Assembly (NCBI GenBank): GCA_009782785.1
Contig: WRIJ01000001.1
Span: 1-64,000 of the forward strand
DNA: 64,000 bases
Direction of reading: 5' to 3'
Source of the DNA: Propionibacteriaceae bacterium
GTDB lineage: Bacteria; Actinomycetota; Actinomycetes; Propionibacteriales; Propionibacteriaceae
Of this stretch, positions 5,719 through 15,305 are shown one piece after another. Each line of letters begins with the position of its first letter. Position 1 is the stretch's first letter. The notes beneath the pieces are model-generated. The model saw only the letters and a list, made by a program, of their open reading frames with translations, was not told the DNA's origin and ran no database searches. A program made the position numbers and the translations under genes.

Positions 5719-6924
5719 GTGACTTATTCAATGGACGGTTGGCAAGAGCCAACTTTTAGCGAAAACCTAGAGAGGGCTGGCGTTACACGTCGAGACTTCC
5801 TCACTTATTGTGGCAGCCTGGCTGCCATTTTTGCAGCCGGTACGACCGTACTAGGTTCTGCAAGTCCAGCCTACGGCGAACCGGATGTCACAGCTGAGGA
5901 CATCGCACGTGCTTTCGACTCTGTGAAGAAACCGAATGTGATTTGGTTGCAACTCCAGGAATGCACCGGATGCATGGAGTCTGTGTTGCGCGGGGCCGGG
6001 ACAACGGTAGAAGACGTGGTGCTCAATTTGTTGAGCGTCAACTACAACGAACTCGTCATGGCAGCCACTGGCGAAGCGGCCAACCAGGCTCTCGAAGACA
6101 CAGTCAAAGAGGGCGGCCACATCCTGGTCGTCAATGGGGCAGTATCCCGCAAGGATGGTGGAGTCTGCTGCATGATCGGTGGAGAAACATCTGAGAACCT
6201 GTTGAAGAAGTCAGCAGAAGGTGCAGCAGCGATCTTGGCTGTTGGCGCCTGCTCTGTTTATGGTGGTGTCCAAGCAGCCGCACCGAACCCCACAGGAGCT
6301 GTCGGGGTCGACACGGTCCTCGGGAATCGCTCGGTGATCAACGTCTCTGGTTGCCCGCCCATCGCTGAAGTGATTTTGGCAACCATCGCGTACTTCCTCA
6401 CCCACGGTGATCCTCCAAAGACTGATTCCCAAGGGCGCCCACTGTTCGCCTATGACCAGCGCATTCACGACTCCTGTCAGCGGAGACCACACTTCGATGC
6501 CGGGCAGTTCGTTCGTACCTTCGATGATGAGGGTGCCCGTAATGGCTGGTGCCTCTATCACGTCGGTTGCAAAGGCCCGAGTACGTTCAGTGCATGCCCC
6601 ATCATTCAATGGAATATGCATACGTCGTGGCCAGTGAAGACTGGAAACCCGTGCATTGGGTGCACAGAGAAAGACTTCTTCGACAAGTTCACCCCCTTCT
6701 TCTCCCGGTTGCCTAGCGTTCCAGGTTTCGGTGTGGAAGGTACCGCCGAAAAGGTTGGACTGGGACTGGTTGCCGCAACAGCTGTAGGCATCGGCCTGCA
6801 TGCTGGTGCTACTGCCATCCGCAAGTCGGCCGCCTCGAAAAACTCCGAGGAGGAGCCTCTGGCTGCCTTCGGTGATGAATCATCCACCTCCGCCAATGCC
6901 GCTGACGCGGCACGCACATCCTGA
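5719..6924 (+). CDS. hyaA: [NiFe]-hydrogenase small subunit, Tat-exported
   Basis: The 401-residue electron-transfer subunit of a membrane-bound uptake hydrogenase. A Tat signal (RRDFLTYCG, twin Arg 24-25) is followed by a probable cleavage site near AYG-EP at ~53. Proximal cluster ligands lie in QECTGCMES (Cys82, Cys85), GACSVYGG and SGCPP. Medial and distal cluster ligands lie in the HDSCQ, WCLYHVGCKG, FSACP and PCIGC segments. A C-terminal hydrophobic helix (~345-367) anchors it before a Ser/Ala/Glu-rich tail. Gly lies between the first two cysteines, so the extra cysteines of oxygen-tolerant enzymes are absent. GTG 5719 is chosen because AAGGAG is 10 nt upstream. It is first in the structural operon. 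Confidence 0.95.
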   Translation: MTYSMDGWQEPTFSENLERAGVTRRDFLTYCGSLAAIFAAGTTVLGSASPAYGEPDVTAEDIARAFDSVKKPNVIWLQLQECTGCMESVLRGAGTTVEDVVLNLLSVNYNELVMAATGEAANQALEDTVKEGGHILVVNGAVSRKDGGVCCMIGGETSENLLKKSAEGAAAILAVGACSVYGGVQAAAPNPTGAVGVDTVLGNRSVINVSGCPPIAEVILATIAYFLTHGDPPKTDSQGRPLFAYDQRIHDSCQRRPHFDAGQFVRTFDDEGARNGWCLYHVGCKGPSTFSACPIIQWNMHTSWPVKTGNPCIGCTEKDFFDKFTPFFSRLPSVPGFGVEGTAEKVGLGLVAATAVGIGLHAGATAIRKSAASKNSEEEPLAAFGDESSTSANAADAARTS

Positions 6925-6936
6925 AAGGAATAAAAC

Positions 6937-8724
6937 ATGGCAGACCGCGTCGTTATTGACCCCATCACTCGCATTGAGGGGCACCTACGCATTGAGCTCG
7001 AAACTAGTGGAGGAAAGATCACTGATGCTTGGAGCTCGACAACCCAATATAGGGGTTTTGAAGAAATCCTTGTCGGACGTGACCCGAGGGATGCTTGGGC
7101 ATTCACCAACCGCATTTGCGGAGTGTGTACGGGCACCCACGCCCTGGCTTCCATCTCCGCAGTTGAGAACGCTATCGGTTCACAACCTCCTGAGCAGGCT
7201 GTTCTCATCCGCGACATGATTCTCTCAGCAACAGACATCCATGACCATGTGGTTCACTTCTATCACCTGCATGCTTTGGACTTTGTCAATGCAGCTAATG
7301 CAGCTAGTGCTGACCCACAAAAGGCCGTCGATTTTGCCAAGTCCATCGGCTCAACCTGGAGAGGCAATAATCTCACCCGCATGACTGAAGTGCGCGACAC
7401 AGTGAAGAATCTTGTTGAGTCAGGGCAGTTGTCTGTGTTCACTGGTGGATACTGGGGACATTCAGATTATCGGCTCCAGCCAGAAGCTGATCTCATGGCT
7501 GTGGCCCACTACCTGGATGCCTTGGAATTCCAGCGTTCCATGATTCGTATTGTCACCACCTTTGGTGGAAAGAATCCTCACCCCCACTTCCTCGTTGGTG
7601 GAATGGCGTGCACGATCGACCAGAATAAGTCGGAAACAGTCAACCAGGTTCAGGTCTCTCAACTCCAGGCATGGATAGCTGAGATCAACGAATTTGTGGC
7701 CACCTGTTATGTCCCGGATGCTATGGCGATTGTGGGAGTTTATAAAGACTATTTCGACATTGGTGCAGCGAACCCCAACTACTTGGCTGTGGGTCTTGCT
7801 GGGGCAACATTTAGTGGTGATCCCAATGAAGTGCCCAAGTTCCCCACGTCAAAAATGGCTGTGAAACCTGGAGTGATCTATGACGATGACTTCTCCCAAG
7901 TTCACCCCTTCGATCCCACCCTCATTGCTGAATCAGTGAACTCGACATGGCTGAGTTATGAAGGCGGGGAAAAGGCTCTCACTCCTGATAAAGGTCAAAC
8001 CAAGATGGCCTACAGCGGGCCACAACCACCGTACGAATCCAAGACAATGGCCAGCGATGACTCTGTTTTGGTTGTCAGTCGGGATAGTGATTGGGATGGC
8101 AAGTACACCTGGTGCAAGGAGCCCATGTACAACGGCAAGCGTATGCAGGTCGGACCAGTTGCCCGTGTCATCATGGCGTACGCACAAGGCCATCCTCGCA
8201 TGAAAGAAATCGTTGATGGTGCTGTGGCGAAACTCGGAATCACACTCGGACAGATGAACTCGACAGCAGGACGTGCCCTCGCTCGTGCGGCAGAGTGCTT
8301 GCTCACTGCCGAGATCCTCGCCCAAGATACCTTCCCGAAATTTGTGGAGAACCTCAAAAAGGGAAACATTGATGTCTTCGATGCCTCCAAGTGGGAGCCT
8401 AGCTCCTGGCCGAAAGAGTCCTCAGGATATGGCATGGTCGAAGTTGCCCGTGGAATGCTCTCACACTGGGTCACGGTCAAGGATCGCAAGATCGAGCGCT
8501 ATCAGTGCGTGGTTCCCACCACGTGGCTTGGTGGCGGGCGAGATGAGTCAGGACAGATGAGCCCCTTCGAACATTCGTTGGCAGGGGATAAGAATCACCC
8601 CTTGGCTGATCCGAAACAACCTCTTGAAGTGTTGAGGACGATCCACTCCTTTGATCCTTGTATGTCCTGTGCAGTCCATGTTTTGGATGTGGATGGCAAT
8701 ATTCTCCAGGTGGCCCAATCATGA
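6937..8724 (+). CDS. hyaB: [NiFe]-hydrogenase large (catalytic) subunit
   Basis: The 595-residue catalytic subunit that splits H2 at a Ni-Fe(CN)2CO centre. The L1 motif is RICGVCTGTHAL (Cys61, Cys64), preceded by RIEGHLRIE. The L2 motif DPCMSCAVH is at the C-terminus (Cys575, Cys578, His581). Fourteen residues follow His581, the usual length of the peptide removed by the maturation endopeptidase after nickel insertion. The length is typical of group 1 enzymes. AAGGAA lies upstream of ATG 6937. It lacks an export signal and would cross the membrane bound to the Tat-tagged small subunit. Its stop overlaps the cytochrome b start as ATGA. Confidence 0.97.
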   Translation: MADRVVIDPITRIEGHLRIELETSGGKITDAWSSTTQYRGFEEILVGRDPRDAWAFTNRICGVCTGTHALASISAVENAIGSQPPEQAVLIRDMILSATDIHDHVVHFYHLHALDFVNAANAASADPQKAVDFAKSIGSTWRGNNLTRMTEVRDTVKNLVESGQLSVFTGGYWGHSDYRLQPEADLMAVAHYLDALEFQRSMIRIVTTFGGKNPHPHFLVGGMACTIDQNKSETVNQVQVSQLQAWIAEINEFVATCYVPDAMAIVGVYKDYFDIGAANPNYLAVGLAGATFSGDPNEVPKFPTSKMAVKPGVIYDDDFSQVHPFDPTLIAESVNSTWLSYEGGEKALTPDKGQTKMAYSGPQPPYESKTMASDDSVLVVSRDSDWDGKYTWCKEPMYNGKRMQVGPVARVIMAYAQGHPRMKEIVDGAVAKLGITLGQMNSTAGRALARAAECLLTAEILAQDTFPKFVENLKKGNIDVFDASKWEPSSWPKESSGYGMVEVARGMLSHWVTVKDRKIERYQCVVPTTWLGGGRDESGQMSPFEHSLAGDKNHPLADPKQPLEVLRTIHSFDPCMSCAVHVLDVDGNILQVAQS

Positions 8725-9947
8725 CAACCACATCACCCGGCACCCTTGCTGAGGTTCCTCTACTCGTAGCAGGGACGGCCTATAGCCTCGGTGTGGTTTC
8801 TGAGGGGCGCATCATGACAATGGCTGCCGCTGCTCCTCCGGGCAGTGATGATCCTGTTGATCAGGCAGCGATTGCAGCACTGAAGGCTAACTATGTTGGT
8901 CTTGATGTTCCGCTGGTCGATGCCGCAGATGTTGACCCAGCCACACCAAAGAGGCGATACAGCATTACTCGCATTCGGGCCTACCATCGTCAAGATGGTG
9001 GTCGAGATGATCGTGTGATTATGCGTGGTGATCTGGATGCTGTCCTGGACAAAGTCGAAATCTCGAAAGAGGAACGTCGAGTCATTAAAAAGAATGCTGC
9101 TGCGGTTGTCCGCAATGGCTGGCGCCCCTTAGCGGTCGCTCGTGCCAAGGTCAATGCTAAGGATGAGGTCGGCCCTTTCCGTATTGAAGGGTTTGTCCCG
9201 GTCGCCCCTGAAGCCAGTCATGCCAAATTGGCTGATGTATCCTCAGGGCCAGCTGTGTTTGCCCGAGTACGAGTGTGGTCAGCATCCTTGCGTTTCCAGC
9301 ACTGGTTGAATGTGGCGACGATCTTTGTTCTGAGCTGTACGGGTTTCTTCATTATGGATCCTTTCTTTGGAACAACCAGTGTTGAATCTGACGCTAGTGG
9401 CTACCTGATGGGGACGATTCGAATGATCCACTTCACTGCTGCTTTCATTTGGCTCATCATCGGTCTTGCTCGAATCTGGGCAGCGTTCATGTCACGTGAT
9501 CGCTATCTTCGTTGGCCTACTTTGTGGCCGCTGAAGAAGAAGGAAGACGTGAAGAATCTTGGCAAGATTCTCCAGCACTATGCGCTGATAAAAGAGCATG
9601 CTCCGCTGTATTTAGCTCATAATCCTCTACAGCAATTGGCGTACACCTCGTTGTATGTTGCTGGTGGTTTTCAGTTGCTCACAGGTTTCATGCTCTATGG
9701 TCTCTACCACCCAAGCAGCAGTTTCTGGGCCTTTATTTCCACACCAGCGACATGGATAGGTATTCCCACTCTTCGCTTGATCCATGCCATGATGATGTTC
9801 CTGTTGTGGGCTTTTGTGCTCATGCACATCTATATGGTGCTGCGCAGTGAATCCCTGGAGCGTCACGGTGGGTTGTCAGCGATGATCAACGGTGGTGTCT
9901 GGGTCAGGCGTGGTTCTGAGCCTGTGGATGCCCCGAAGGTCGAGTGA
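8721..9947 (+). CDS. hyaC: Hydrogenase cytochrome b subunit with P-type ATPase N-domain-like extension
   Basis: A 408-residue protein in two parts. Residues ~180-400 are a HyaC-type di-haem cytochrome b with four helices and conserved His in FQHWLN, IRMIHF, RLIHAM and VLMHIYM; this part passes electrons from the hydrogenase to quinone. Residues ~31-163 are soluble and absent from ordinary HyaC. They match the order of motifs in P3A H+-ATPase nucleotide-binding domains: DDPVDQAAI, a KR pair, an MRGDLDAVLD segment where KGAPE would lie, then NGWRPLAVARAKV and GPFRIEGFVPV. No DKTGT phosphorylation motif is present. ATG 8721 overlaps the hyaB stop. The cytochrome call is secure; the ATPase-like origin is inference. 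Confidence 0.9.
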   Translation: MTTTSPGTLAEVPLLVAGTAYSLGVVSEGRIMTMAAAAPPGSDDPVDQAAIAALKANYVGLDVPLVDAADVDPATPKRRYSITRIRAYHRQDGGRDDRVIMRGDLDAVLDKVEISKEERRVIKKNAAAVVRNGWRPLAVARAKVNAKDEVGPFRIEGFVPVAPEASHAKLADVSSGPAVFARVRVWSASLRFQHWLNVATIFVLSCTGFFIMDPFFGTTSVESDASGYLMGTIRMIHFTAAFIWLIIGLARIWAAFMSRDRYLRWPTLWPLKKKEDVKNLGKILQHYALIKEHAPLYLAHNPLQQLAYTSLYVAGGFQLLTGFMLYGLYHPSSSFWAFISTPATWIGIPTLRLIHAMMMFLLWAFVLMHIYMVLRSESLERHGGLSAMINGGVWVRRGSEPVDAPKVE

Positions 9948-10449
9948 GTTCGAGATCGACGAGTCTCTTCGCGATAGGTTTGCCGTCACCGTTTTGGGTG
10001 TCGGCAACCCGATCATGGGCGATGATGGTGTGGGGATCACACTCTTGGAGAGGTTGCGCCATGAGTACGGTGATCCCCGTGTTGACTTTGTTGATGGTGG
10101 GACAGGTGGACTCGAACTGATCCCCGTCGTTCAAGATGCGAGACGTTTACTCATCGTTGATGCCGTGGCTGGGGACACCCCCGGTGAGGTTGTTCAATTC
10201 GATGGTGACCAGATTCCAAGGATGATGCAAGCCAAACTTTCGCCCCACCAAATCAGTTTGCTGGATCTTTTTACTACGGCAAGAATGCTCGGTAGCGAAC
10301 CTGAACATATTGCTGTGGTGGGTGTCGTACCCCAGTATGTCGGATTGCGTGTGGGACTGTCTGGAGTGGTGGAAGCTGCCCTCTTGCAAGCGACCAGCAA
10401 AGCTGGGGAGATCCTTCGCACATGGCTTGGTGAAGAGAATCTGGCATGA
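9928..10449 (+). CDS. hyaD: Hydrogenase maturation endopeptidase (HyaD/HybD family)
   Basis: A cytoplasmic peptidase of 173 residues that removes the C-terminal tail of the large subunit after nickel insertion. VLGVGNPIMGDDGVG near the N-terminus, VDFVDGGTGGLEL and the His in LSPHQISLLD match the nickel-sensing Glu/Asp/His set of the family. The track start at GTG 9892 lies well inside hyaC; ATG 9928 leaves a 20-nt overlap and a normal N-terminus, although its ribosome binding site is weak. It is the last gene of the structural operon and converges on hypA. Confidence 0.9.
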   Translation: MPRRSSEFEIDESLRDRFAVTVLGVGNPIMGDDGVGITLLERLRHEYGDPRVDFVDGGTGGLELIPVVQDARRLLIVDAVAGDTPGEVVQFDGDQIPRMMQAKLSPHQISLLDLFTTARMLGSEPEHIAVVGVVPQYVGLRVGLSGVVEAALLQATSKAGEILRTWLGEENLA

Positions 10450-10490: not shown

Positions 10491-10841
10491 CTATCCCTTG
10501 ACCATGTCAGCATAGGTGACGTCAAATTCATTCCCGGAGACAATTTTGCCTGCAGGCGAGCCGCACACTGGGCATGTCAAGGCAAAATACTGATCAATGT
10601 CTTGATCCTTGTCGCAGGTACCACACCACACACGCGCGGGAATTTCTTCAATCTCCAAGGTCGCATCAACGCAGATCGTTCCCTGGGTAGCGATAGGCCA
10701 GGCTCCTTCCAGAGCCTCGCGTACTGCACCACTGCGAACCCCCACACGCAAACCCACCTTGGTCACCGAAACCGCACCATAGGTGTCGGCAGCATGACGA
10801 ACAGCGGCCACGACATCAGCCAACAAGCCCAGTTCATGCAT
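10491..10841 (-). CDS. hypA: Hydrogenase nickel-incorporation protein HypA (copy 1)
   Basis: A 116-residue zinc- and nickel-binding adaptor that works with HypB to insert nickel into the large subunit. MHELGLL supplies His2, the nickel ligand, and the zinc site is CGTC with CPVC near residues 77-97. The start at 10841 is fixed by the MHE motif and by AGAAGG upstream; the track start adds six residues. It faces hyaD tail-to-tail, and its start is 32 nt from the divergent large-subunit paralogue. A second hypA lies at 14893-15231, and the two sequences are quite different. Confidence 0.92.
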   Translation of the reverse strand: MHELGLLADVVAAVRHAADTYGAVSVTKVGLRVGVRSGAVREALEGAWPIATQGTICVDATLEIEEIPARVWCGTCDKDQDIDQYFALTCPVCGSPAGKIVSGNEFDVTYADMVKG

Positions 10842-10873
10842 GGATACCTTCTTTTTCACCAGGGACGATTGCC

Positions 10874-12118
10874 ATGATACAACAGGTCAATATTGGTGCA
10901 GTGATCGATCCTGCTCCCGCTCGCGTACTAGTGAAACGAGACACCCACGGTGAGGTGGTGGAGGCTACCTTTGATTTGTCTGGGTTACCTCGGGTGGATT
11001 CTATGCTCATTGGCCGGAAGGTAGCCGATGTTCCTGGACTCGTTGAGCGGTTGTGTGGGATCTGCCCTGCGGCTCACCATCTTGCTGGTATCCGAGCTTT
11101 GGAGGATCTGGCAGGCATCACCCAGATTCCGCACTCAGCAGCTCAACTGCGAAGGCTATTGCACTACGGATCAGTGATGGCGATCCACGTCGTCTCACTG
11201 GTGGCAACCCACCCTCATGAAGCTCTCCTGCTTCGCCGTTTCGCCAAAGCCGCCATGGCTGCTGCAGGTTCCCCAGGACACTTTCCCACCACTGCTGTTC
11301 CTGGGGGAGTAGCAACTAGCCTTGATCCAGGTACGAGCCAGCAGTGCCTGGAGATGGCCGCTGAAGCCCTCGATGCAGCAACCGCTCTCGTCATGCAGAC
11401 TATGGCCACTGAAGTACCCGCTGACCCTTTCACCGGTGCCAACCTTGCTCTGGTGGACGACGATGGCCTCCTTGACCTGTTTGGGGCCTATGTACGAGTG
11501 GTTGACCACCACGGCGAAGAACTGATCTCTCAGGCGGATCATCACCAATGGGAGACACTGGTGGCAGAAGCCATACCAGGGTCATCCTCCCCGAAACCTT
11601 TTCTTCGTGGATGGGGATCTGGTGCAGGGACCTATCGGGTTGGTCCGGTCGCTCAACTGCGGGTTGCCCCCCTGTCCACCCCACTCGCTGACGAATTCCG
11701 CCATCTCTGGAATGAACAAGGCCAGGGGGCTGCTCGAGCCCGAGCGATTAGCATTCTTCACTGTGTGGAGGCCATTGAGTCCATACTGTTGGATACCCAG
11801 TCCCATCAAGGTGAGCTGGTCGGTGCAGGTCACCATGAGCGTCTTACACGCAATACCGGTGTGGGATGGGTTGATGGGGCCCGTGGTCTGCTCGTACATC
11901 GTTACGTCACTGACCATGATGGCCTTGTCACAGATGCACAAATTTTGACTCCCACAGCACAAAATGAACCATGGCTGGGAGCCCTGCTCACCCATGAGGC
12001 TGCGTCGATGAGTGACTTGGGTTTCGAAGCTGCCATTCATGAAGCAGATCCATGCCTGCCCTGCTCGTCAGCACCTGCTGGTGCCATGGGGCTCCACGTG
12101 GAGACTGGGCAAGTATGA
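10874..12118 (+). CDS. Hydrogenase large-subunit paralogue, HupK/HoxV-like scaffold candidate
   Basis: A 414-residue protein related to [NiFe]-hydrogenase large subunits but shorter, with no small-subunit gene beside it. The L1-like motif is RLCGICPAAHHLAG (Cys61, Cys64). The C-terminal motif DPCLPCSSA keeps both cysteines (394, 397), but Ala400 occupies the place of the conserved His, and a 14-residue tail remains. It is followed at once by an extra HypC paralogue, the arrangement of HupK/HupF-type assembly factors, which scaffold Fe(CN)2CO delivery. A scaffold role is my preferred inference; an alternative catalytic subunit sharing HyaA is possible. AGGGA precedes ATG 10874. Confidence 0.75.
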   Translation: MIQQVNIGAVIDPAPARVLVKRDTHGEVVEATFDLSGLPRVDSMLIGRKVADVPGLVERLCGICPAAHHLAGIRALEDLAGITQIPHSAAQLRRLLHYGSVMAIHVVSLVATHPHEALLLRRFAKAAMAAAGSPGHFPTTAVPGGVATSLDPGTSQQCLEMAAEALDAATALVMQTMATEVPADPFTGANLALVDDDGLLDLFGAYVRVVDHHGEELISQADHHQWETLVAEAIPGSSSPKPFLRGWGSGAGTYRVGPVAQLRVAPLSTPLADEFRHLWNEQGQGAARARAISILHCVEAIESILLDTQSHQGELVGAGHHERLTRNTGVGWVDGARGLLVHRYVTDHDGLVTDAQILTPTAQNEPWLGALLTHEAASMSDLGFEAAIHEADPCLPCSSAPAGAMGLHVETGQV

Positions 12119-12130
12119 GAGGATGGTCCC

Positions 12131-12376
12131 ATGTGCATTGCTGCTCCCGTACCCATTCTTGACATCAGTGAAGGTCCCATGGCGATGGGGCACGTACTGT
12201 GTGACGGTGAACCGCATCCATGCTGTTTTGCGTACGTACCTGAAGCGCGCGTTGGCGATTACGTCTTAGTCCAGAACGGATTCGCCACTCAACTCCTTGA
12301 TGAGGAATCTGCTGCACTCAGTATGGCTGCCTTTGAGGAGTTAGCCAAGCTACCATCAGCGGTGCAATTGCCTTAG
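12131..12376 (+). CDS. HypC/HupF-family hydrogenase assembly chaperone (copy 1)
   Basis: An 81-residue HypC-family protein. It starts MCIAAP, giving the exposed Cys2 that carries the iron ligand group, and contains VGDYVLVQNGFATQLLDEE, the usual HypC/HupF C-terminal motif. An unusual HPCCF pair of cysteines lies in the middle, absent from the second copy at 18710. GAGAGGA precedes ATG 12131. It sits 12 nt after the large-subunit paralogue, so the two are probably co-translated and may act together. The stop overlaps that of tatB on the other strand. Confidence 0.85.
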   Translation: MCIAAPVPILDISEGPMAMGHVLCDGEPHPCCFAYVPEARVGDYVLVQNGFATQLLDEESAALSMAAFEELAKLPSAVQLP

Positions 12377-12810
12377 TTTTGTCCCGATTCCTCTTCCGGT
12401 GCTGCAGGTGGCGGCAGGACCGGCGGGCGTGGGCGCGGGGGAATCAGGTGAGCTCCGGCTTGGAGGCGCAACTTAGTGACTTCAGTGCGCATGGCGTTCA
12501 TCTCATCGCGCAGGGCAATCAGTTCGCCACCCACATCGTGTTCCAGTGAAGAGATCTCCTCACCAAGAACAGAATTAACTAATGACTTGGGGTTAAGATC
12601 CGACACATTGAGGCCATCGAGGGGGAGATCAGAAAACTCTTCACCGAGCTCTGCCTTGAGTTGATCGGTGGCGTCGTTAGCAATTCCGCGCAGAAAATTG
12701 ATGACAGTTGACACTTTTTTCACCATGGGAGGGATCTTGTCAGGGCCAAAAACCACAGCAACCAAGACACAGATGACAAGAAGCTCGGCCATGCCGATAT
12801 CGAGGAACAT
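12373..12810 (-). CDS. tatB: Sec-independent translocase component TatB
   Basis: A Tat receptor subunit of 145 residues. The N-terminal helix MFLDIGMAELLVICVLVAVVFGPDKIPPMV is the TatB signature with the hinge FGPDKIP. An amphipathic helix and a coiled-coil-like region (~85-115) follow, and the tail is Pro-rich (PPRPRPPVLPPP). The track start at 12825 is GTG; I prefer ATG 12810, which gives the typical MFxDIG beginning. It partners with tatA and tatC encoded on the opposite strand just after it, and would help export the hydrogenase small subunit carrying the RRDFL signal. Confidence 0.85.
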   Translation of the reverse strand: MFLDIGMAELLVICVLVAVVFGPDKIPPMVKKVSTVINFLRGIANDATDQLKAELGEEFSDLPLDGLNVSDLNPKSLVNSVLGEEISSLEHDVGGELIALRDEMNAMRTEVTKLRLQAGAHLIPPRPRPPVLPPPAAPEEESGQN

Positions 12811-12907
12811 CAGTGTCATAACCACAGTTTAGCCGCGTCGCTTACAGGAGGCGATTATTGCTGATAGGATCGTGAGACACACTGGCTCTGTTAAGAGGAG
12901 GTCCTTC

Positions 12908-13147
12908 ATGACCGGTTTGGCACTGTGGATGCCTGGCATCTGGCAGATGGTTATCGTCCTAGTTATCGTGTTGCTCGTCTTTGGTGGAACGAGGATTGCT
13001 GGAATTGGGAAAGAATCTGGTCGAGCCATTCGAGAGTTCAAAGAAGAACTCAAGGGCCCAGAATCACCGTCTTCCCAGGGAGAGACTGCTGGGGAGGCAA
13101 GCACAGCAAAGCTGGAGGCCAAAGCCACTGAGCAGGCTGACTCATAA
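12908..13147 (+). CDS. tatA: Sec-independent translocase component TatA
   Basis: A 79-residue single-helix pore subunit. The N-terminal membrane helix GIWQMVIVLVIVLLVFGGTRIAGIGKESGRAIREFKEEL contains the FGG hinge and the amphipathic helix of TatA. The tail is Ser/Glu/Ala-rich. ATG 12908 is chosen because AGGAGG lies at 12896-12901; the longer ORF start has none. It is 14 nt upstream of tatC and transcribed with it. Its position inside a hydrogenase locus suggests dedication to hydrogenase export. Confidence 0.88.
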   Translation: MTGLALWMPGIWQMVIVLVIVLLVFGGTRIAGIGKESGRAIREFKEELKGPESPSSQGETAGEASTAKLEAKATEQADS

Positions 13148-13161
13148 GGCAGGGGTCAATC

Positions 13162-14040
13162 GTGCCCAAGAAGGGTTCGCGCCTAGCGTGGCTGCGGGCA
13201 CCCAAGTCCTCTGACACCCAAGGGTCGATGCCCCTGATCGACCATTTGCGTGAATTGCGCTACCGGTTCCTCATGTCGATGATTGCTATCGTGGTCTTGA
13301 CAATCGTGAGCCTTTTTTTCCAATCCCAGCTTCTTCGCGTCGTCTTGTGGCCCATTGATCGAGCTGTCGAAATCTTCAACACCTCACGTCCCGATGATCA
13401 TGTCGAAATGGTCACCCAAGGAGTCACCGCTGGTTTCGCCCTATTTTTCCGTGTAGGTCTAGTGGCAGGATTCATCGCCGCATGCCCAGTGTGGTTGTTT
13501 CACCTGTGGCGATTCATCATCCCTGCTGTGGGGAAAGCTCAGCGCCGTGTTGCCCGAGGGTTCCTTGCCGCCGCAGTCCCACTCTTCCTGCTTGGTGTTG
13601 GGGTGGGTTACTCGTTTTGTCCTCGAGGTTTTGCAGTCCTACTCGAATTCAATCCACCCACAGTGACCAACCTCAATGACGTGGGAACCTTCCTCACCTT
13701 TGAATTACGCTTGCTGCTCGTCTTTGGTCTGGCCTTCCAATTGCCGGTGCTCTTAGTGAGTTTAAACAAAGTGGGGTTGATCACGGGGAAAGCTTTGGGG
13801 AAATTCCGAGGCCCAGCCATTGTCTTGTGTGCCCTCTTCTCGGCCATCGCAACCCCGACCACCGATGCGTTCACCATGATGGTTTTGATGGTGCCCATGA
13901 TGATCATGTACGAGATCGCCGAAGTGCTGTGTCGCATCGGTGATCGCAGACGGAGGAATCGTGGGGATGAAAGAGAACAAACACCATCGAGGTTCTCGAA
14001 GCGACAACCACCAGGCCACGTGGAGCTAGAATCCCACTAG
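13162..14040 (+). CDS. tatC: Sec-independent translocase subunit TatC
   Basis: A 292-residue polytopic Tat signal receptor. The cytoplasmic N-terminus has SMPLIDHLRELRYRFL, the conserved site for recognising twin-arginine signals. About six transmembrane helices follow, with GVGYSFCPRGFAVLLEFNP and an NDVGTFLTFELRLLLVFGLAFQLPVLL segment typical of TatC. The GTG start at 13162 follows AAGGCAGGGG. The Arg/Lys-rich C-terminus overlaps the stop of hypB on the other strand by 4 nt. It forms an operon with tatA. Confidence 0.93.
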   Translation: MPKKGSRLAWLRAPKSSDTQGSMPLIDHLRELRYRFLMSMIAIVVLTIVSLFFQSQLLRVVLWPIDRAVEIFNTSRPDDHVEMVTQGVTAGFALFFRVGLVAGFIAACPVWLFHLWRFIIPAVGKAQRRVARGFLAAAVPLFLLGVGVGYSFCPRGFAVLLEFNPPTVTNLNDVGTFLTFELRLLLVFGLAFQLPVLLVSLNKVGLITGKALGKFRGPAIVLCALFSAIATPTTDAFTMMVLMVPMMIMYEIAEVLCRIGDRRRRNRGDEREQTPSRFSKRQPPGHVELESH

Positions 14041-14892: not shown

Positions 14893-15231
14893 TCAATCCT
14901 CCAGTACGAGCGAGGTCACCATGAACTCTTCACCAGTGAGGATGTCCACTTTCGTACTCTCGCAAAAGTCACACACCAGTATAGGTGTATCCCGCAGGGT
15001 GGTTTCCTTGAGACAATCCTGGCATTTCAGTGTTCCCTCGATGGAGTGAATCTTCAAGGTGGAACCCTCTAATGTGGTCGATGGTGTGACAAAATCCCAA
15101 CAGTAAGCCAGTGTTGCAGGAACCACTTGTCGCAGGTTACCCACATCGAGTTCCACGACTCGTACTCGGCGTCCTCGTGCAGCCACCTCAGCGATAGCCA
15201 CAATGGAGTGGCACAAAGACAACTCGTGCAT
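14893..15231 (-). CDS. hypA: Hydrogenase nickel-incorporation protein HypA (copy 2)
   Basis: A 112-residue second HypA. MHELSLC provides the nickel ligand His2, and CQDC with CDFC form the zinc site. The start at 15231 is set by MHE and a strong GGAGG; the track start is nine residues longer. It is the first gene of the minus-strand pair hypA-hypB and is divergent from hypF. It differs widely from copy 1 outside the motifs, so recent duplication is unlikely. Confidence 0.93.
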   Translation of the reverse strand: MHELSLCHSIVAIAEVAARGRRVRVVELDVGNLRQVVPATLAYCWDFVTPSTTLEGSTLKIHSIEGTLKCQDCLKETTLRDTPILVCDFCESTKVDILTGEEFMVTSLVLED

Positions 15232-15305
15232 GGATCCTCCAATAGACCAGGGTCTCAAGCTTTGCTACGCTCGTGGATATTCATCCTACGTCAAGGCAGG
15301 TCATC

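Follow-up and report, generated by a model that had tools for sequence, protein, structure and literature searches.

A P-type ATPase nucleotide-binding domain fused to the membrane cytochrome b of a Propionibacteriaceae [NiFe] hydrogenase

The 64,000-nucleotide stretch of Propionibacteriaceae DNA analysed here (the window) carries a hyaC-like gene in which a hydrogenase cytochrome b is preceded by a long N-terminal extension. The initial annotation read this extension as the nucleotide-binding domain (N domain) of a P-type ATPase. Such domains usually occur as insertions within enzymes of a single superfamily, the P-type pumps. The locus raises two questions, namely whether the extension is such a domain and what it could do on a hydrogenase subunit.

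The hydrogenase locus and the cytochrome half

The hyaC-like gene lies among genes for the large and small hydrogenase subunits, a HyaD-type protease, and maturation and Tat proteins, and its ATG overlaps the hyaB stop codon (ATGA). The principal features are as follows.

5719..6924, + strand: HyaA, hydrogenase small subunit (TIGR00391, 9.6e-123), in which a Tat signal (RRDFL) and a hydrophobic stretch at the C terminus were read from the sequence
6937..8724, + strand: HyaB, hydrogenase large subunit (NF007550, 2.1e-153, below the equivalog cut-off)
8721..9947, + strand: hyaC-like gene, N domain plus [NiFe]-hydrogenase b-type cytochrome, 408 aa in a single open frame (TIGR01647 at residues 7-161, TIGR02125 at residues 185-391)
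9273..9893, + strand: HyaC-type cytochrome b domain, residues 185-391 (PF01292, 1.3e-27; TIGR02125, 2.4e-39; 4gd3_A, 4.7e-21)
9892..10449, + strand: HyaD-family hydrogenase maturation protease (TIGR00072, 1.6e-38), overlapping the end of hyaC

The nearest PDB chains to HyaB are 3myr_B and E. coli Hyd-1. The cluster also contains hypA, hypC, tatB, tatC, hypB and hypF, identified by family search, and hypE, hypD and tatA, read from the sequences; the hyaB-hyaC-hyaD order is conserved in the complete related loci. The gene product is the membrane cytochrome b of a Tat-exported, membrane-bound [NiFe] hydrogenase.

The cytochrome half is an ordinary HyaC, scoring 135.1 bits against a TIGR02125 equivalog cut-off of 121.5, and its nearest solved structure is the E. 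coli Hyd-1 cytochrome b, HyaC (4gd3_A). Four histidines that are invariant in a seven-sequence alignment (H194, H237, H355 and H369) are candidate haem ligands. Lysine and arginine residues number five before the first transmembrane helix, nine between the second and third, and five after the fourth, with none in the two opposite loops. Together with the hydrophobic segments, this charge distribution supports a predicted topology in which the HyaC N terminus and its N domain are cytoplasmic, and the domain would thus be exposed to cytoplasmic nucleotides. E. coli HyaC belongs to the same cytochrome b family (TIGR02125/PF01292), and its gene likewise lies next to those for both hydrogenase subunits and the maturation protease, but it has only about 12 residues ahead of the matched region, the place taken by a folded domain of 150 residues in the window protein.

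Several further genes of the cluster were recorded. The tatB gene, a tatA-like gene and tatC lie within the hydrogenase maturation cluster at 12373-14040. Two hypA-like genes are present, one at 10491-10859 that scores below the TIGR00100 cut-off and one at 14893-15258 (- strand) that was assigned by eye. Between the first of these and the tat genes, positions 10874-12118 encode a 414-aa hydrogenase large-subunit-like protein, the best NCBIfam match of which is VhuA (6.2e-34, far under the cut-off). It has CxxC pairs close to both termini (LCGIC and DPCLPC) and no adjoining second small-subunit gene, and may be a scaffold like HupK or else an additional large subunit. The same assembly contains another complete hydrogenase operon (L102, G000:C2:43000-62000), with tatB and tatC likewise in its maturation cluster and a hyaC copy (L102:9117-10343) that also carries the N-domain fusion. 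Its gene order is identical to that of the window, down to the cation-efflux and sugar ABC transporter genes on its flanks, and the proteins are 67-89% identical; this operon is either a segmental duplication or comes from another strain that was binned with the first (estimated contamination 6.48%).

Homology of the extension to P-type ATPase N domains

Residues ~14-163 of the window protein are homologous to the P-type ATPase N domain, with the P3A proton pumps as the nearest group. The features of this region are listed below.

8760..9209, + strand: N domain, residues ~14-163 (AlphaFold2 pLDDT 81.6; best 50 Foldseek matches P-type ATPases; hhalign 95.5% to P3A N domains)
8850..8861, + strand: DPVD, residues 44-47, equivalent to P3A DPID / DAID; D44 invariant in 28 of 28 sequences
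8931..8957, + strand: VDPATPKRR, residues 71-79, equivalent to P3A FDPxxKR; P73 invariant, R78 and R79 kept in 93-96%
9024..9029, + strand: R102-G103, equivalent to KGAP Lys-Gly (SERCA Lys515); unchanged in all 28 sequences
9123..9140, + strand: RPLAVA, residues 135-140, equivalent to P3A R(x)LAVA; R135 (the SERCA Arg560 position), L137 and A140 invariant
9210..9272, + strand: linker, residues 164-184, from the N domain to the first transmembrane helix; low confidence

Matching of the window protein to TIGR01647 (P3A H+-ATPase; E = 0.00098) is confined to profile positions 295-439, the N-domain part, and this was the family most often matched by the relatives (11 of 27 with E no higher than 1, the lowest value being 6.5e-6). 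When a profile of the fused family was aligned with hhalign to P3A N domains, the probability was 95.5% (E 1.5e-8, 134 columns), as against 84% for P3B, 41% for P1B and 38% for P2 ATPases and at most 0.9% for reversed-profile controls. A reciprocal profile search of 395 class-level genomes returned the two copies of the source genome and five other matches, all five of them P-type ATPases.

The predicted structure agrees. AlphaFold2, run with seven sequences, gave a well-predicted domain over residues 10-167 (mean pLDDT 81.6, pTM 0.77), and Foldseek matched this model to 66 PDB entries at E <= 0.001, the best 50 of these 66 all being P-type ATPases with a probability of 1.00. The best match was SPCA1 (7.5e-7), and the P3A pumps AHA2 and Pma1 reached query TM-scores of up to 0.63-0.64. 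The elements run helix 28-35, helix 45-57, strand 80-89, strand 95-104, helix 105-109, helix 116-131, strand 135-144 and strand 153-163. A full-length model (pLDDT 67) kept both halves and matched P-type ATPases and 4gd3_A; within the linker, pLDDT drops below 50 over residues 168-183 when the domain is modelled alone and over 168-178 at full length.

The extension is only ~20% identical to P3A N domains, and searches with it gave no significant match in Pfam or in profile searches of PDB sequences, as might be expected if the resemblance had arisen by convergence or if another fold had been mispredicted. That explanation is hardly credible given the profile-profile match with clean reversed controls, the reciprocal hits, the order of motifs, and the restriction of the best 50 of the 66 Foldseek matches to P-type ATPases. 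Weak Surp, hexokinase and CopA lines in the Pfam and PDB sequence searches were rejected as chance, the best CopA stretch lying outside the CopA N domain.

The order of motifs is that of the P3A pumps of the phylum (L055-L059), which read DPIDLAVL, FDPATKRTEA, VIKGAPQIIL and GLRIIAVA. Both the predicted fold and the element order are common to the window domain and the P3A N domains (AHA2, 5ksd; Pma1, 9ugc/7nxf; TIGR01647), with equivalents of DPVD, VDPxxxRR, RG and RxLAVA at matching places. The core fold is also shared with the P1B copper ATPases (CopA 2voy_J, 2b8e and 3a1c; ATP7B), with a TM-score of 0.78 by the length of 2voy_J; however, the P1B pocket residues differ (E1152/D1167/D1171 and N1150 in ATP7B), and the motifs of the window domain are those of the P2/P3 type.

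The initial annotation's fusion of a P-type N domain to a hydrogenase cytochrome b is upheld by sequence profiles, predicted fold and about 30 related genes. DDPVDQAAI (43-51), MRGDL (101-105), GWRPLAVA (133-140) and FRIEGFVPV (153-161) stand where it had placed them. Other details needed adjustment. The domain, given as ~31-163, ends as described but begins earlier, at about residue 14; the basic pair near the 'DKRT' position exists, but it is R78-R79 that is conserved and not Lys-Arg, K77 being kept in only 3 of 28 sequences; and MRGDLDAVLD does occupy the place of KGAPE, with the conserved lysine of that motif an invariant arginine in the fused family.

The rest of the pump is missing, as had been proposed. 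The window protein sequence contains no DKTGT, GDGxND or actuator domain, has no Pfam match to E1-E2_ATPase or hydrolase families, and lacks the transport helices of P3A pumps; as judged from the sequence, the extension is an N domain only, without P-type phosphorylation and actuator domains. P3A N domains are inserted in the phosphorylation domain, unlike that of the window protein. An N domain from a donor closest to the P3A pumps would have been grafted onto the cytoplasmic N terminus of the cytochrome, acquired alone and with the flanking phosphorylation and actuator domains lost. With these domains gone, the N domain would be unable to be phosphorylated or to drive transport.

Distribution and age of the fusion

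The extension is carried by 24 of 397 genomes of the order, all 24 of which belong to one family. The same fusion, sought in HyaC homologues, was present in every one of the 28 matches above the TIGR02125 cut-off in 198 Propionibacteriaceae genomes, all in frames of at least 414 aa, and the loci fetched from this family search have the end of the N domain upstream of the cytochrome. Among 297 genomes sampled across the phylum, the other above-cut-off HyaC proteins lie in frames of 206-330 aa without the extension, and scanning 397 genomes of the phylum with a profile of the extension turned up no further fusion. The fused cytochromes form one clade with support of 100/99 in a 60-row tree.

Some longer frames were considered and set aside. 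The 330-aa frame of L104 is extended by only ~30 residues and lacks the N domain. In some relatives of high GC content, frames run to 628-942 aa just because the upstream sequence is free of stops, and not because the proteins are longer; in L030 and L031, what precedes the start in frame overlaps hyaB, which is read in a different frame.

Four MAGs labelled Bifidobacteriaceae (L005-L008) have the same fused hyaC, placed inside the Propionibacteriaceae branch, reflecting either transfer or mislabelled bins. A relative in the genus of the window (L004), labelled Propionibacteriaceae, may be a termite-gut MAG, as its isolate name Emb289P3 suggests.

The N domain is under purifying selection: its dN/dS of 0.06-0.29 in seven pairs indicates constraint, at values slightly above those of the cytochrome. 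A fusion created by frameshift or assembly error is ruled out by the same junction, without stops, in complete copies from about 30 genomes. The single clade, the conserved hyaB-hyaC-hyaD order and the purifying selection together establish a single ancient fusion event and not an assembly artefact. The missing partner domains might suggest an inert relic carried as a functionless passenger, but this reading is strongly disfavoured, and in our estimate very improbable, by the constraint on the N domain, the absence of stops in complete copies, and the fact that no HyaC above the cut-off in this family has lost it.

The nucleotide pocket and a possible role in the hydrogenase

Besides its two anchor residues, SERCA contacts the nucleotide through Lys492, Lys515 and Leu562. 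The anchors themselves are Phe487 and Arg560 (PMC3203174). Mapped through the P3A alignment, Arg560 corresponds to R135, Leu562 to L137 and Lys515-Gly to R102-G103, all invariant in the fused family; Lys492 corresponds to R78/R79 (93-96%) and Phe487 to V71. At this last position, that of the stacking phenylalanine, 20 of the 28 fused sequences have valine and 2 have phenylalanine; L011 and L014 retain the phenylalanine. With D44 included, seven pocket positions were compared, and five of them are invariant, out of only nine such columns in the core (p = 4e-6 by a hypergeometric test and 1e-4 by an entropy rank test), values that come from related sequences and from positions chosen by the author from the alignment, and so not fully independent. 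Some of the invariant residues may simply hold the fold. The concentration of invariant positions at the former nucleotide site suggests that the pocket has been kept for a ligand, with the adenine contact altered.

An isolated N domain can suffice for binding, as that of ATP7B binds ATP alone with a Kd of about 52-74 uM (PMC3203118). In the reading favoured here, the domain on HyaC would bind a nucleotide, with ATP or ADP the first candidates. We give about an even chance to this reading, in which the subunit that reduces quinone bears a regulatory module able to bind nucleotide in the cytoplasm, with both binding and regulation inferred. Quinone reduction by HyaC-type cytochromes probably takes place at the cytoplasmic face, and the N domain, on a ~20-residue linker ahead of the first transmembrane helix, would sit at that same face. 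Through a bound nucleotide, nucleotide levels in the cytoplasm could adjust either assembly or the passage of electrons from H2 to quinone. The predicted cytoplasmic location and the invariant Arg, Gly and Leu pocket residues make it plausible that nucleotide sensing couples H2 oxidation to energy charge, as the initial annotation had envisaged; the more specific proposal, that a repurposed N domain on the electron-outlet subunit acts as a sensor through which the ATP/ADP state of the cell allosterically controls H2 oxidation into the quinone pool, is a tentative one, to which we give somewhat less than an even chance. The full-length model, of low confidence, reveals no mechanism linking the N domain to the haems.

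Several differences from P3A pumps speak against a nucleotide role: the stacking phenylalanine is mostly valine, the KGAP lysine is arginine (the motif reading RGxL), and one to three extra residues lengthen the loop near R78-R79. The main rival to a nucleotide module is a structural or docking domain that no longer binds nucleotide and serves hydrogenase assembly at the membrane or the recruitment of a cytoplasmic partner. The loss of the stacking phenylalanine in most members and the Lys-to-Arg change fit this reading, as does the lack of a phosphorylation domain to use a bound nucleotide, and purifying selection and a conserved fusion are equally expected under it. A docking surface, however, would not need invariant positions to cluster at the former nucleotide pocket, and we regard this role as a serious but less likely explanation. 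Binding of another cytoplasmic ligand that regulates the hydrogenase, such as NAD(P), a nucleotide second messenger or a phosphometabolite, would fit the retention of the basic residues R78, R79, R102 and R135 without the adenine-stacking phenylalanine; since the change from Phe to Val alone need not abolish adenine binding, this is considered rather improbable.

The protein is a new architecture built on a known HyaC, its unusual part being an N domain used outside a pump. No description of the fusion, of HyaC extensions, of stand-alone N domains or of the hydrogenases of Propionibacteriaceae was found in the open-access literature (PMC open-licence). That an N domain alone, cleanly excised, has long been kept on a hydrogenase subunit presents it as a portable module. 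To our knowledge, there is no earlier case of direct allosteric control of a hydrogenase by ATP/ADP, and a sensor of this kind, if confirmed, would be the first. If the nucleotide-binding module proposed here still binds its nucleotide, it would offer a simple physical route for adjusting H2-driven respiration to energy charge, with relevance for H2 turnover by Propionibacteriaceae, including termite-gut members, where H2 is abundant.
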